NCBI GenBank assembly: GCA_028875335.1 | Contig: JAPPEF010000211.1 | Span: forward strand, 1-24,288 | Source: Gemmatimonadota bacterium | Lineage (GTDB): Bacteria > Latescibacterota > UBA2968 > UBA8231 | Reading direction: 5' to 3' | DNA: 24,288 bases | In this document: positions 14,300-23,967 of the stretch, one piece after another | Layout: each line of letters begins with the position of its first letter | How positions within the stretch are numbered: the first letter of the stretch is position 1 | The notes under the pieces: generated by a model | Database searches by the model: none | What the model saw: the letters and a program-made list of their open reading frames with translations, nothing else | Told to the model about the DNA's origin: nothing | Translations under genes and position numbers: made by a program

Positions 14300-14436
14300 C
14301 TGATGTTACGCATCGTGCTGATTATGGGCTAGGCCATAGAGATGCTTCGACTCCGCTCAGCATGACAAGAAGCCAATGTCATGCTGAGCGGAGCGAAGCA
14401 TCCCCTACCCAAACGGCTTCCTGTGCGTAATATCAG
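14300..14436. mobile_element. 137-bp MITE-like cassette, CTGATGTTACGCA termini, palindromic core type A
   Basis: It fills the gap between two convergent genes. Left terminus CTGATGTTACGCA (14300-14312) and right terminus TGCGTAATATCAG (14424-14436) are inverted copies with one mismatch. Inside is a long hairpin with arms 14341-14366 and 14378-14402, differing by a single inserted base, around an 11-bp loop. The minus-strand gene's TGA (14437-14439) directly abuts the right terminus, and the plus-strand gene's TAG ends three bases before the left one. I found no convincing target duplication (TTAGTAC against TCAGTCA). No transposase is encoded, so mobility would need enzymes supplied elsewhere. 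The hairpin could also serve as a two-way transcription stop. Confidence 0.75.
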
Positions 14437-18031: not shown

Positions 18032-19288
18032 TCAGCTAATAAATCCTTGCAGTACCTGCCACTCCTCTTCACTCATATCCGAGTAGTGCCAGTAGATGAG
18101 GCTTTGCAGGCCGCTGGCGACAATGGCCTGCAAGAGCAATTCGAGTTCGTTGGACGAGATCCGCACTCCGCCGTGGTGCAGGCCAACCCAGGGTTTGAGG
18201 CGCTCCACCGGACCAGTGCGGAAGATCATCTTGGCGATTTCCCCGGGTACGGTCTCGCGGAAAAAGGCTTCGTTGAGCGGTGCCGACAACTCGTCTAGCG
18301 TGCGCACGCCGGGCATGGTGAAGCCGAACAGTTTAAAGACAAAATCCAGCGCCAAGCCCTCGTCCACATCTTCGTTCAATTCCACCAGCGTTTTGGCGTA
18401 GCGGTACACCGTCCCCTTCAGCCCGTCGATGCCGTGCTGCCAAAAGTAGAGCTTGGGGGCGATAAAATCGGTCACTTCACCCAAGCGCCGATAATTGTAT
18501 CCAGTCAACGGAGCAAAGGCCGAGATCCGGGGTCCGCAAGCCAGCTTTAATTTCGGGTCAATCTCTTTGACGCCGCGGTAAAATGCACCCACGTAGTGCT
18601 CGATACACGTGGTCTTGAAGCGAATCCAGTCGAAGAGCGCGGGATCCTGCAAGAGCAAATCCACTGCGTCAAAGGGCCCGGTCTGCGCCTCGATAAAACC
18701 GCGCATCACAGCCGGACTCAATGCACTCAGGCGAGCCCGCAAGCGCTCGGCCGCTTCCTGCATGGCGGCGAAATCGCAGCTCAATTCCCGCGCCTTGTTC
18801 TCGCAGTGGCGACAGAAACACCCGAATACGTCGCTGCGGTGTCCCGGCTCAATTTCGTAGCCGTATTCGGGGCCGTCGAGTACAAAACCGCCGGTATCGG
18901 GATATTGGGCAAAAGTGTCCCGGGTGCGCGCCAAGCCGTAGCGCACCTGCTCGGGATTGTTCAGGCACGAGCCCGATTCGAACCAGCCGAACTGTCCCCA
19001 ATCGTGGAAGTAGATGGAAAACCCCTTGTCCGCGGCGACTTTTACCGCATCGCCGAAAATGCGGCTCGACGCTTCTAGATCGGTGGGCAGTTGCGGCGGC
19101 TGTTTTTCACAGTCGTGGTAAAAATCCACATTGGGAGCAAAGGAAGGGCCCTGGGTCTCGCCTTGCCGCAAGATCAAATCGCCCAGCACCAATTCCCTGA
19201 TGCCCCCGTCCCACAGGCGCTCGATAATGTAGTCCGCGCCGTCGTTTTCAAATGCCTGAATCTGTCCCATGAACATTACGGGTCGCAT
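18032..19288 (-). CDS. TIM-barrel-type putative glycoside hydrolase-like protein of unknown function
   Basis: A 418-residue protein with alternating strands and helices typical of a TIM barrel: IRELVLGDLIL, GFSIYFHDWGQFGWF, TGGFVLDGPEYGYEI (133-146), KLKLACGPRIS, DFIAPKLYFWQHG and LQSLIYWHYSD near the end. Asp138 and Glu141 in the LDGPE segment are candidate acids. A cysteine group CFCRHC (157-162) may bind metal or form a disulfide. I do not recognise a precise family; GHL-type putative glycosidases are the closest by eye. ATG 19288 has a strong AAGGAGG eight bases upstream. It is followed immediately by the lyase-like gene (TGAcATG). Upstream it is separated from the spermidine-synthase-like gene by an inserted 156-bp element. 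Confidence 0.6.
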   Translation of the reverse strand: MRPVMFMGQIQAFENDGADYIIERLWDGGIRELVLGDLILRQGETQGPSFAPNVDFYHDCEKQPPQLPTDLEASSRIFGDAVKVAADKGFSIYFHDWGQFGWFESGSCLNNPEQVRYGLARTRDTFAQYPDTGGFVLDGPEYGYEIEPGHRSDVFGCFCRHCENKARELSCDFAAMQEAAERLRARLSALSPAVMRGFIEAQTGPFDAVDLLLQDPALFDWIRFKTTCIEHYVGAFYRGVKEIDPKLKLACGPRISAFAPLTGYNYRRLGEVTDFIAPKLYFWQHGIDGLKGTVYRYAKTLVELNEDVDEGLALDFVFKLFGFTMPGVRTLDELSAPLNEAFFRETVPGEIAKMIFRTGPVERLKPWVGLHHGGVRISSNELELLLQAIVASGLQSLIYWHYSDMSEEEWQVLQGFIS

Positions 19289-19332
19289 GAGCTATCCTCC
19301 TTTGTCGCGGTCGAATTGATCTAGTCCGTTTG

Positions 19333-19506
19333 CTTTTCCTCCTAAGTACACGACAGTAGAGCGGTATGAGATGCTTCGCTTCGCTCAGCATGACAACAGG
19401 GGCGTCAGCACCGGTCATGCTGAGCGGAGCAAAGCGGAGTCGAAGCATCTCAGCGCTCCCATGCCTAACGTCCACTGGATTACTGTCGTGTACTTAGCTT
19501 TTCCTC
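19333..19506. mobile_element. 156-bp MITE-like element with perfect 17-bp inverted termini and 9-bp target duplication
   Basis: The element proper spans 19342-19497. Its termini are CTAAGTACACGACAGTA (19342-19358) and the exact reverse complement (19481-19497). It is flanked by the direct repeat CTTTTCCTC at 19333-19341 and 19498-19506, a clean target-site duplication. The core is a hairpin of the same type as at 14341-14402, with arms 19368-19394 and 19414-19451; the right arm carries an extra 11 bases. The right terminus codes for the last five residues (LSTRQ) of the spermidine-synthase-like protein, and its stop TAA uses the first base inside. There is no transposase. Short reading frames across it (with HAERSKAESKH-like text) are artefacts of the repeat. 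Confidence 0.9.
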
Positions 19507-22500
19507 TAAGGCGAGATATTTCTCGAAATCGCGTCGCGCCCTGTCGAGATATGGATGGTCTCCGGCTTGGTAGCATTTGACGCGCGCTTCGAGCAAATCG
19601 CGCTTCCAAGGCACGTGTGGTTCCAGCTCGTTGAGCACCTCTATGCAGTTCTGCGGAAAATTGAGCTCGTAGCCCAGATTCAACAATGCATTCAGCCGCG
19701 TCTCCCGCGCGTAATCCATGACAAACGGAGAACGCAACGCCGCGTATAATCGCTCGGCATGAGCCGCATTCCGACCACCGAGGTCCACCGCTAGCGCCAA
19801 CCCGCGCTGCATCAGTGCCGGCCAAGCCCAAGGATCGCGGCCGTACCCCGCAAAAGCGGACTCCAAGGCGGCGACTGCTTCCGACATCCGTCCCTGGCGC
19901 GTGCGCAAAATGGCCAAGACCACATCCGCTTCAACGGGCTGAAGGAGGCGCAACTGCTCTATGTACTGGGCGGCCTCCTCGCGCTGGTTGACCGCCATCA
20001 TGTAGGCCACCGCCGACACTTCGTGCAGCCCGCGCGGCTGGCGCGGCTGACTTTGCCACCAAGCCAGCCCATTGCGCGACCGCGAGTCCCACCAGGCCGC
20101 TAAGGCCCGCAGGCGATATCGCTGGTGCGGCGTCAAATCCGGGTACCGGTTCGGGCGAATCTGTTCCCCTTGGCCAATCAGAAAGGCGAGACGCTGGTCT
20201 GCAACCCAGTCCCAGTCCACGTCCCCACCCGTCGCGCGGAGCCGATCTTCCCCTCGATCACGCGCCAATTTTTCCACCGTCTCGATATTGAAATGCCTCC
20301 CGAGACCCAGATGGCGGGCAAAGGCGTACTCCACCAAGGTGCGATCATCCGTATTCAACGCTTGCCCGCGCGCCAATTCGCGCGCCACTGTAGGACCGGC
20401 CACATAGTGGGCGAGGAAGCCTTCGAGGTCCGCAGTGCGCCAGACTGCGGCCAGTGCACTGCGATAGGGTTCCTCGGCGATCCGGGCACGCAATCTGGAA
20501 ACATCGTACGACACCGGCCCGGCAGACGATAGCAGCAGCAAATCCCCGCGCTGAGTCTGCCAAGTTTCCACGTGCGCGAAAACCGAACTCAGAGTAGCGT
20601 AAATGGTGCGAATAGTTTGCTCGTCCACCTCGTACATTTGCACCCACTGCGCGAATAGGCCGCCATCGCGCAGCAGTGGGGCGATTCCCTCGTAGAATTC
20701 TCGCGTGTACAGGCTGGCGACTCCCGCCCGGTAGGGATTGGAAGGCTCGGAGAAGATGAGGTCGTAGGATTGCCGGGTGGTCAGAACGACCTCTCGCCCA
20801 TCGCCGACCACCGTGTGCACCTTGGGATGACCGACGGCGTTCACATTGACCGGCCCAAAGGCGCTGGCCGCTTCGACCACAGCCCCCTCCAACTCCACCA
20901 CATCGACGCGTTCCATTGCGTCTATAGCAGCCAGCCAACCGGCCGTAGATCCGGTCCCAAGTCCAATGACTAGAGCATTGCGCGGCTGTGGATGCAGAAT
21001 AGCTCCGATCATCCCGCTCATGATCTGAGTGGAGGCGTCCCCCACCGCAGATCCCTCGCTCTTGCCGTTCAAAAAGAGCACCGGCCCCCGATCGGACACG
21101 CGAATGGCCACTGAGCTTTCAATCCCTTCCCGCTCCCAACGCACGGCGCGCCGCTGCCCTTGCATCCATCCCCGTATCCCGTTGGCATTCAAATTGGCCA
21201 GCATTTTCAGCCCCGCTCCAATCGGAGTGTGCCGCCACGCCGCGGTGGGCCCGGTCGCCAACAATAAGGACGCGGCGACCACAGCCAAAACGACAGCTAT
21301 ACCCGCCTGCAGGCCAACCCATCTCGCGCTTTCCCCCTCCCGTCTGTCTCTCGCCCACGAAAACGCAGCAATACCGCCGCCCAAAACCGCGAGCAGTACT
21401 ACCACGAGTTGCCACGCGCCCGGCGCGGAAAGCCACGGCAGCAAGGCGAAGCCGCCGAGCAAAGCGCCCAGGATGGCACCCAGTGTGTTCCAAGCATAGG
21501 TCCACCCCACGTCGAGCCCGAGTTGGCGCGCGCCAGGGCCCAGCAGCGCAATGAGGAGCGGAAACTGGTACCCCGCAACAATAGCCGTGGGCAGCACCAC
21601 AATGCCCACTACTACGGACCACGAAAGCACCAGTCCGCCAAAACCCAGCGTCCCCCACTCGCGCAGGCCGCCCGCCAGCACAGCTAATTGATCGCCCAGC
21701 GCAAAGGGAATGGCTACACACAGCGCTTCTAGGATGCACGTCAGCGCCAGCCCAGAGAGCGCAGGAGGCCGCTTTCGCCCCCACAATGCATAAGCGGTCC
21801 CCCCCAAGCCGATCCCTAGCAGCGCCACGGCTAGGATGAGGCCAAAGGTATAAGTGGTACCCCCAAGCAGCGGTGCCAGCATCCGGTACCAGACCAATTC
21901 CATGAGCAGAAAGGCCATTCCGACCACCGCAGCAGTGGCAAAAATCAGCAGCCGCACATAGCCGGAGCGCCGCACCTCTCCATCTGCTGATTGCGCAACA
22001 GACACCTGTTTGTCAAAGACGGCTGGGTAAGCGCGCGCAATCCAAAGGGCACAGCCGCCGACAACGGCGTTTAGCACAGCCGCAGCCCACAGGGTTGCAT
22101 CAGCCCCTAGGCGTTCCAGCAGCGCGAAAGTAGCCAGCAAAGCCCCGGTCACAGCGCCGAGCGTGTTGATTCCGTACAGCACGGCGACCCGGCGTCTCCC
22201 AGCATCCTCATCGCCCCCGACAGCTCTGGCCGCGGCGGGTAGCGTTCCCCCCATGAGAAAAGTCGGAACGGCCAGCGCACACGCAGTTAGCACGAGCCGC
22301 ACCAGCGTGGCCACGACCGGCCCCAGCGACAGGACTCCGCCCAAGGCGACGTAGAACTCGCGCGCCATCCACACCAGCAATGGCGTGAGGGCAGCCGAAG
22401 CCGCAATGAATAGTTCAAGGTAAGCGTAGAGAGCTAAAGGCCGAGGGTTGCGGTCAACGCGCCGCCCAAACCAGAACCCGCCCGCGCCAAGCCCCCCCAG

Positions 22501-22644
22501 AAAGACAGACAGCACCGCGGCCGAGGCCAGCGTAGAAGCACCAAAGACAAAGCGGAATTCGCGCAGCCAGACCATCTGGTAGATCAGGGCGCACATCCCC
22601 GACCCAAACAATAAGCCGGCGACCAATATCACGTGTCGCACCAT
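19480..22644 (-). CDS. Membrane-anchored spermidine-synthase-like protein (MFS-like fused) with C-terminal TPR-like region
   Basis: A 1054-residue protein. Residues 1-465 form about a dozen membrane segments in two halves, as in MFS/spermidine synthase fusions. Residues about 505-720 form a SAM-dependent methyltransferase fold with ALVIGLGTGSTAGW (557-570), VVELE (582-586) and SYDLIFSEPSNPY (626-638). The last part reads as TPR-like helices (LRTRQGRMSEAVAALESAF). The SEPSNPY segment differs from the Asp-rich catalytic loop of true spermidine synthase, so aminopropyl transfer is uncertain. ATG 22644 lies six bases after the molybdoenzyme's TGA, suggesting one transcript. Its original C-terminus was changed by the element at 19342-19497 (now EEKLSTRQ, formerly EEKQTD by reconstruction). 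Confidence 0.88.
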   Translation of the reverse strand: MVRHVILVAGLLFGSGMCALIYQMVWLREFRFVFGASTLASAAVLSVFLGGLGAGGFWFGRRVDRNPRPLALYAYLELFIAASAALTPLLVWMAREFYVALGGVLSLGPVVATLVRLVLTACALAVPTFLMGGTLPAAARAVGGDEDAGRRRVAVLYGINTLGAVTGALLATFALLERLGADATLWAAAVLNAVVGGCALWIARAYPAVFDKQVSVAQSADGEVRRSGYVRLLIFATAAVVGMAFLLMELVWYRMLAPLLGGTTYTFGLILAVALLGIGLGGTAYALWGRKRPPALSGLALTCILEALCVAIPFALGDQLAVLAGGLREWGTLGFGGLVLSWSVVVGIVVLPTAIVAGYQFPLLIALLGPGARQLGLDVGWTYAWNTLGAILGALLGGFALLPWLSAPGAWQLVVVLLAVLGGGIAAFSWARDRREGESARWVGLQAGIAVVLAVVAASLLLATGPTAAWRHTPIGAGLKMLANLNANGIRGWMQGQRRAVRWEREGIESSVAIRVSDRGPVLFLNGKSEGSAVGDASTQIMSGMIGAILHPQPRNALVIGLGTGSTAGWLAAIDAMERVDVVELEGAVVEAASAFGPVNVNAVGHPKVHTVVGDGREVVLTTRQSYDLIFSEPSNPYRAGVASLYTREFYEGIAPLLRDGGLFAQWVQMYEVDEQTIRTIYATLSSVFAHVETWQTQRGDLLLLSSAGPVSYDVSRLRARIAEEPYRSALAAVWRTADLEGFLAHYVAGPTVARELARGQALNTDDRTLVEYAFARHLGLGRHFNIETVEKLARDRGEDRLRATGGDVDWDWVADQRLAFLIGQGEQIRPNRYPDLTPHQRYRLRALAAWWDSRSRNGLAWWQSQPRQPRGLHEVSAVAYMMAVNQREEAAQYIEQLRLLQPVEADVVLAILRTRQGRMSEAVAALESAFAGYGRDPWAWPALMQRGLALAVDLGGRNAAHAERLYAALRSPFVMDYARETRLNALLNLGYELNFPQNCIEVLNELEPHVPWKRDLLEARVKCYQAGDHPYLDRARRDFEKYLALEEKLSTRQ

Positions 22645-23831: not shown

Positions 23832-23967
23832 CTGACGTTACGCATCGGCACCGAACCGGTCGATGTAGGGGCGTCCCTTGTGGGCGCCCATGCGACACCG
23901 CGTATGCAGCCAGCGGGATCCGACGAGGGCAACCACAAGGGTTGCCCCTACAAATGCGTAACGTCAG
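23832..23967. mobile_element. 136-bp MITE-like cassette, perfect 14-bp inverted CTGACGTTACGCAT termini, core type B
   Basis: Termini CTGACGTTACGCAT (23832-23845) and its exact reverse complement (23954-23967) bound it. The core is a different imperfect hairpin from the 14300 copy, with arms at 23865-23889 and 23927-23951. Flanking direct repeats TTTTTTA (23825-23831 and 23968-23974) fit a 7-bp target duplication, but a T-run is weak evidence. The right terminus provides the TGA stop (23964-23966) of the DUF4091-type gene. The gap 23803-23963 has no gene of its own. Confidence 0.8.

Follow-up and report, generated by a model that had tools for sequence, protein, structure and literature searches.

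A 156-bp element with IS4-family ends in the last codons of a spermidine synthase-like gene from a little-studied bacterial phylum

Within a 24,288-nucleotide stretch of DNA (the window; contig JAPPEF010000211.1 of assembly GCA_028875335.1), a spermine/spermidine synthase-like gene ends inside a 156-bp non-coding element, MITE1. The explanation that best accounts for the data as a whole, and that we hold to be very probably correct, is that a MITE with IS4-family (IS10-like) ends was inserted in trans into the last codons of this host gene. The case is a clean one, in which a tiny transposon takes over the stop codon of a gene and the empty sites, the partner insertion sequence (IS) and the target rule are known. 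MITE1 also encloses a REP-like palindrome, core A, which is common to MITE families with unrelated ends, so that the origin of REP-like cores becomes testable in a little-studied phylum. The features of the window are collected in Table 1; fetched loci, genomes and proteins are referred to by numbers beginning with L, G and P, respectively.

Table 1. Coordinates of the features discussed, in window positions.
Feature	Position	Strand	Remarks
MITE1 (156-bp MITE, non-coding)	19342..19497	.	Sequence, inverted ends, copies elsewhere
TIR1, terminal inverted repeat CTAAGTACACGACAGTA	19342..19358	.	Same 17 bp as the ends of the 1165-bp IS
TIR1, opposite end	19481..19497	.	Same 17 bp as the ends of the 1165-bp IS
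Target-site duplication CTTTTCCTC, old-stop-codon side	19333..19341	.	GAGGAAAAG on the gene strand
Target-site duplication CTTTTCCTC, copy within the gene	19498..19506	.	Codons GAG GAA AAG (EEK)
Core A, REP-like palindrome GATGCTTCGCTTCGCTCAGCATGAC	19370..19394	+	First arm; inverted pair with 19414-19452
Host gene, spermine/spermidine synthase-like (PF01564), 1054 amino acids as called	19480..22644	-	
Element-derived gene end	19480..19497	-	CTA AGT ACA CGA CAG TAA (LSTRQ-stop)
CAA at the former stop-codon position, now non-coding	19330..19332	-	TAA in L001, L002, L005; TGA in L003
Downstream gene	18032..19288	-	Own strong ribosome site AAAGGAGG
MITE2a, ends CTGATGTTACGCA / TGCGTAATATCAG, core A inside	14300..14436	.	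Empty site in L002, L005
MITE2b, MITE2 ends, different palindromic core GTAGGGGCGTCCCTTGTGGGCGCCC	23832..23967	.	7-bp duplication TTTTTTA

The insertion site in the window and in relatives

The inverted termini of MITE1 and the direct repeats that flank it are those given in a preliminary description of the window, and match at 17/17 and 9/9 positions, respectively. The identity of the direct repeats extends for one further base (GCTTTTCCTC), the first base of the right copy then being the last base of MITE1. The direct repeats directly adjoin the inverted pair and the same layout was found again at other loci; the arrangement is therefore beyond chance. In its length, its lack of coding sequence and its 17-bp inverted repeats MITE1 falls within the ranges given for MITEs in the cited part of PMC3733652 (approximately 70–300 bp, non-coding, terminal inverted repeats of 15–30 bp). 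It also has the other properties of a MITE: a duplication and four empty orthologous sites, multiple copies in relatives and ends in common with an autonomous IS. As RNA, MITE1 folds with a predicted energy of −81.9 kcal/mol compared with a mean of −47.1 kcal/mol for shuffled sequences (z of −8.5), and none of 200 shuffles was equally stable. Once transcribed, the hairpin may have a regulatory effect. No Rfam family was found in the window at the gathering score, and a scan of positions 19200–19700 gave no terminator-like site and a single promoter-like match (19224–19251, minus strand; 0.3 expected).

The host gene now ends ...ALEEKLSTRQ-stop. As the preliminary description had it, EEK is encoded by the right copy of the duplication, and the five codons that follow, together with the stop codon, are supplied by MITE1. 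Both ends of MITE1 encode LSTRQ-stop in frame 0, the stop codon being TAA or TAG, and the same tail was found at two further insertions near gene ends (L204 and L164, which lie 3 and 9 nt, respectively, from the stop as reconstructed). In the fetched loci, 33 of 153 distinct ends are entered by a frame of at least 90 codons, and the three frames are hit evenly (ten, 11 and 12 entries in frames 0, 1 and 2, respectively). Translation ends after five codons in 10/10 entries in frame 0, immediately in 9/11 in frame 1, and after six or 14 codons in frame 2. The host gene and its downstream neighbour, a putative compact operon in the preliminary description, have been moved apart, as had been proposed: the spacing from the host stop to the downstream gene is 191 nt in the window compared with 41 nt in L002 and 32 nt in L001 and L005. 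The strong ribosome site ascribed to the downstream gene was recovered; its designation as a TIM barrel was not confirmed, as the gene gave no Pfam match.

Orthologues of the host gene at four loci from relatives (L001, L002, L003 and L005; 90–96% identical over the best segments) all lack MITE1. On the gene strand the empty site reads TTG-GAGAAAAAG-TAA in L001, TTA-GAGAAAAAG-TAA in L002, TTA-GAGAAAAGG-TGA in L003 and TTA-GAGGAAAAA-TAA in L005. The stop is directly followed by ACGGAC at all four loci, and past ACGGAC the ribosome site and the gene downstream of it are those of the window in L001, L002 and L005 but not in L003. Alignments of the window with L001, L002 and L005 (blastn) end within 5 nt of MITE1 and restart beyond it; with L003 the gene side alone aligns. 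A search of 25 genomes of the family gave nine with a match at an E value of 1e-100 and four with an orthologue of at least 91% identity, which are those of the four loci above, and in 4/4 the stop lies at the old position. The empty sites, the breaks in the alignments and the position of the stops in relatives establish that the insertion is real and that, among the sampled genomes, it is present in the window alone. The preliminary claim that a small non-autonomous element had truly transposed is thereby upheld. To call the event fairly recent, as was also done, is reasonable given its absence from four relatives and its perfect ends and duplication, but gives it no date.

At the position of the former stop codon the window has CAA, with C as the first base where the four orthologues have T. 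T is also the base favoured there by the target preference described below. CAA is an altered stop codon, in which T most likely mutated to C after the insertion had made the stop redundant. The insertion had been called exactly reversible; it is one base away from being so, as excision from the present sequence would put CAA at the position of the relatives' stop codon.

The partner insertion sequence, the MITE1 family and its targets

The transposase with matching termini that the preliminary description had anticipated was found in genome G012. Here, the 17 bp of TIR1 bound an IS of 1164–1167 bp (the 1165-bp IS of Table 1), and among 27 end pairs of this length both ends are identical to those in the window in 26. 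One end of the window MITE1 has 20 nt in common with the IS. Duplications flank these pairs as 15 exact 9-bp repeats, one 9-bp repeat with a mismatch and two 8-bp repeats, with none at the other nine; 9 bp, in 16/27 pairs, agrees with IS4-family duplications of about one helix turn. The transposase, for which 26 of 39 matches in G012 are of full length without stops, scores 216 bits against the IS4 model NF033591 (cut-off 152) and also matches PF01609. Its catalytic residues are D104, D168 and E269 (D-63-D-100-E) and its motif YGQRWAIETTFACLK is a complete Y-2-R-3-E-6-K, as in IS4-family DDE enzymes. Of 959 plasmid records, the 12 listed show 34–41% amino-acid identity to the transposase, and a PDB sequence search gave no match at E values of up to 0.1. 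Fragments of a close relative of the transposase lie at contig ends in G001. In G004 there was no transposase match at an E value of 1e-20, and the G004 copies of the MITE therefore look orphaned. Since identical ends bound both, the 156-bp element is a MITE, presumably moved in trans by an IS4-family IS with matching ends, and the G012-type IS or close kin would have acted in the genome of the window.

Matches to the 156 bp were found in the genomes of three of the four relatives and in seven of the 25 family genomes, many of them spanning the core only, and a 16-nt end pattern (up to one mismatch) occurs in at least nine of the 25, with no matches to the reversed control. Pairing of ends in the fetched loci (up to three mismatches) gave 51 pairs, some of which are nested or mispaired. 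Duplications of 8–10 bp with at most one mismatch flank 32 of them (20 exact at 9 bp or more and seven exact at 8 bp), so that copies with different duplications do exist in relatives and in the family, as had been expected. The remaining 19 pairs have no such duplication and neither does L080, the best-matching full copy; both observations count against the main explanation. A single MITE1 insertion with the duplication GGGAAGAA is common to G002, G004, G007 and G011, both flanks being homologous (83–94%). The MITE1 family has thus been active before as well as after the split of these lineages. In G004 the same copy contains an IS110-family element. A 1346-bp TIR1 pair in this genome was rejected as an autonomous IS, as it is a MITE1 copy interrupted in this way (L110 1181–2526 / L087 1501–2846), with an insert of approximately 1.2 kb that codes for an RNA-guided transposase of the IS110 family and approximately 41 nt of the MITE core unmatched. 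As a separate observation, the IS4 ends also adjoin another palindrome, of the GGGCGTCTCGCCCGC type, in G003 and G012 (L211, L222, L223, L226, L227, L133 and L141).

The target preference was derived from 19 exact 9-bp sites excluding that of the window, 17 of which are from G012. It takes the form TNA-N9-TNA, with T at −3 in 14/19, A at −1 in 15/19, T at +1 in 15/19 and A at +3 in 14/19 (binomial p for each single position between 1e-6 and 4e-5 against the flanking composition). The empty site of the relatives agrees with this form throughout in L002, L003 and L005 and at three of the four positions in L001. The preference is a tendency, which counts against the main explanation: all four positions are present at 6/19 sites and at least three at 15/19. 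The preference of IS10, NGCTNAGCN, differs from that found here.

In the mechanism that we favour, the IS4-family transposase would insert MITE1 in trans by DDE chemistry, probably by cut-and-paste to judge from the family. The target would have been TTA-GAGGAAAAG-TAA, with the 9 bp that separate TTA from the stop becoming duplicated. The reading frame now runs from the first duplicate into the end of MITE1 and gains the five residues L-S-T-R-Q before a stop; the old stop codon has become spacer, and its TAA would later have mutated to CAA. The downstream gene has kept its own ribosome site, and its start now lies 191 nt past the stop instead of 32–41 nt.

The reconstruction in the preliminary description would imply another order of events, in which the stop first mutated to CAA, the gene briefly ended in EEKQTD and the MITE then inserted. 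The base in the window today is indeed C, and joining the flanks gives EEKQTD-stop in frame, on paper. However, the uninserted alleles, which were found in four relatives as expected, have no QTD-stop; these orthologues stop right after EKK, EKK, EKR and EEK, and T is the first base of the stop in 4/4. T is also preferred at this target position (15/19 other sites), and a redundant stop is free to drift. Neither QTD nor LSTRQ ends any of the 19 nearest other proteins (P0002–P0020, of which P0013, P0014, P0016 and P0017 are without a normal C-terminus). We consider the order with CAA first to be unlikely. It is far less probable still that the element is a REP or REPIN moved by a REP-associated tyrosine transposase, with single-strand HUH rather than DDE chemistry. 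In favour of this reading, the core, a REP-like pair of inverted palindromes, is also found in places that lack TIR1, but the duplications of 8–9 bp and the 17-bp ends in common with an IS4 element speak for the DDE enzyme, and none of six Y1 hits (PF01797; four of eight genomes) has a core with up to five substitutions within the approximately 3.2 kb of the fetched locus. Mobilization by a RAYT was rejected, as no RAYT flanked by the same REP, the arrangement of a REPIN, was found in the loci fetched from the eight genomes.

The insertion might alternatively be adaptive, with the hairpin or the LSTRQ tail regulating the gene pair, or with the family aiming at stops and so sparing genes. The very stable RNA hairpin fits such a role, as does the distribution of insertions: 7/32 lie within 20 nt of a predicted stop, whereas only 3.5% of the positions in these stretches do so, and 16/32 lie within frames, compared with 90% of positions, and are thus rarer there than expected. 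These figures are based on frames from a crude greedy longest-frame caller, not a gene finder; in two cases out of 32 (L111 and L087) the available stretch was short at one end or at both, and for one of the seven near-stop insertions (L159) the stop belongs to a neighbouring IS copy. Sites that fit TNA-N9-TNA are no closer to predicted stops than others (3.2% of 187 compared with 3.5% of positions), which shows that the target motif is not aimed at stops and makes the survival of harmless insertions, that is purifying selection, the likelier cause of the excess near gene ends; this would explain the excess equally well. Together with the even entry frames, the same comparison led us to reject the targeting of stop codons through the motif, and no terminator-like site accompanies the hairpin. 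An adaptive origin thus appears improbable, and insertion in trans followed by loss of the redundant stop is the reading retained here.

Core A and the second MITE family

Inside MITE1, GATGCTTCGCTTCGCTCAGCATGAC forms the basis of a REP-like inverted pair that makes up the interior. Of 64 genomes from the phylum, 20 contain the corresponding pattern, GATNCTTCGCTNCGCTCAGNATGAC, which was also found, among 36 genomes reached through 37 of 74 more distant loci, in three beyond it, titled Acidobacteria (two) and Pirellulales; the reversed control gave no match in either set. The first and last N of the pattern, which would face each other in a hairpin, show each of the four complementary pairings and are mismatched in a minority of cases, as judged by eye, and the cores from other phyla (L292–L298 and L306), also by eye, are without these MITE ends. 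In the window and in relatives core A occurs in two MITE families with unrelated ends; many copies in G004 and other relatives sit in MITE2, with ends CTGATGTTACGCA...TGCGTAACATCAG (judged partly by eye).

The fetched loci were classified by ends and core, both ends being required. Since the loci came from searches with TIR1, core A, the MITE2 ends (TIR2) and the transposase, the resulting frequencies are biased. TIR1 encloses core A in 12 elements, eight with a duplication, and TIR2 encloses core A in eight (five with a duplication), a GTAGGGGCG core in two (both with a duplication) and a 103-bp form in six (four with a duplication). Five TIR1 elements (three with a duplication) and two TIR2 elements (one with a duplication) were left unclassified. 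The duplications at TIR2 elements are of 7 bp in 10/12 cases.

Several further observations concern the MITE2 family. The site of the window MITE2a corresponds to approximately 14000–14100 of L001, where a TIR2 end is followed by a different sequence; this could reflect either a repeated hit on one target or an interior swap. Beside the MITE2b site, L002 and L005 have approximately 100 nt that the window lacks. The 103-bp form has one frame open from end to end in 6/6 copies (L307, L308, L310, L312, L314 and L316), with a translation of approximately ...KPVDPRYWGEIEDFLENCVTS, and is perhaps a remnant of the corresponding transposase gene. Between a pair of MITE2 ends 1156 bp in length in L116, no obvious transposase was seen by eye.

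By eye, the segment ATCCAGTGGACGTTAGGCATGGG of MITE1 looks similar to a TIR2 end. On the simplest reading, MITE1 began as a MITE2 and acquired its IS4 ends later; replacement of the ends, insertion of the core and shared descent would each be compatible with the data. More generally, we tentatively suggest, as a possibility that we would not yet call probable, that the REP-like cores of the phylum are exchangeable cassettes, mobile or recombining units that acquire new transposase-recognized ends, with MITE1 as a re-wrapped MITE2. This suggestion is drawn from the presence of core A in two MITE families that differ in their ends and duplications (8–9 bp compared with mostly 7 bp), from the at least three different cores carried by MITE2 ends, and from kin of the core in other phyla that are not enclosed by ends of this kind. 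A possible exchange of cores between unrelated ends was less to be expected than the other results and is worth following.

Comparison with known systems

In the open-access literature searched we recognized no description of the MITE1 family, of the IS4-family partner or of the target preference, and the core strings occurred there in unrelated context only. The general features have precedents in the cited parts of earlier accounts, which describe MITEs with IS ends and REP-bearing MITEs (PMC5896051, PMC3733652 and PMC10969869), as well as the targeting of a MITE REP by IS1111 and the extension of a C-terminus by an in-frame MITE (PMC5896051). The G012 IS has the YREK motif of IS10 and IS50. 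As summarized in the relevant part of PMC2266710, IS10 has ends that start with CT, 9-bp duplications and a length of 1200–1350 bp, and IS50 has CW and 8–9 bp; the G012 IS resembles the IS10 subgroup in its CT ends and 9-bp repeats, but at 1165 bp is slightly short. Core A resembles the REP and REPIN sequences treated in PMC3733652 in that these are short palindromes, arranged as inverted pairs and repeated in intergenic DNA. With respect to the features covered there, it differs in having no GTAG/CGTC tag by eye, in being enclosed by DDE-type ends and in having no RAYT beside it in the fetched loci.

Two systems come closest to the effect on the host protein. The Rickettsia palindromic elements, in the portion of PMC10969869 used here, are likewise small in-frame repeats that add residues to proteins, but have an open frame and a conserved peptide, whereas MITE1 provides five codons and a stop only. 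The Coxiella burnetii element QMITE2, according to the cited sections of PMC5896051, is also a MITE (150–190 bp) with duplications of 7–11 nt that contains a REP; its copies lie for the most part in intergenic DNA or 3' untranslated regions, and one in-frame copy lengthens the C-terminus of a protein. Its REP is an insertion target of IS1111, which is of the IS110 type, comparable with the MITE1 copy in G004 that contains an IS110-family element. QMITE2 differs from MITE1 in its ends, in its GTAG-type REP and in the length of the extension, which is 33 residues compared with the five added here.
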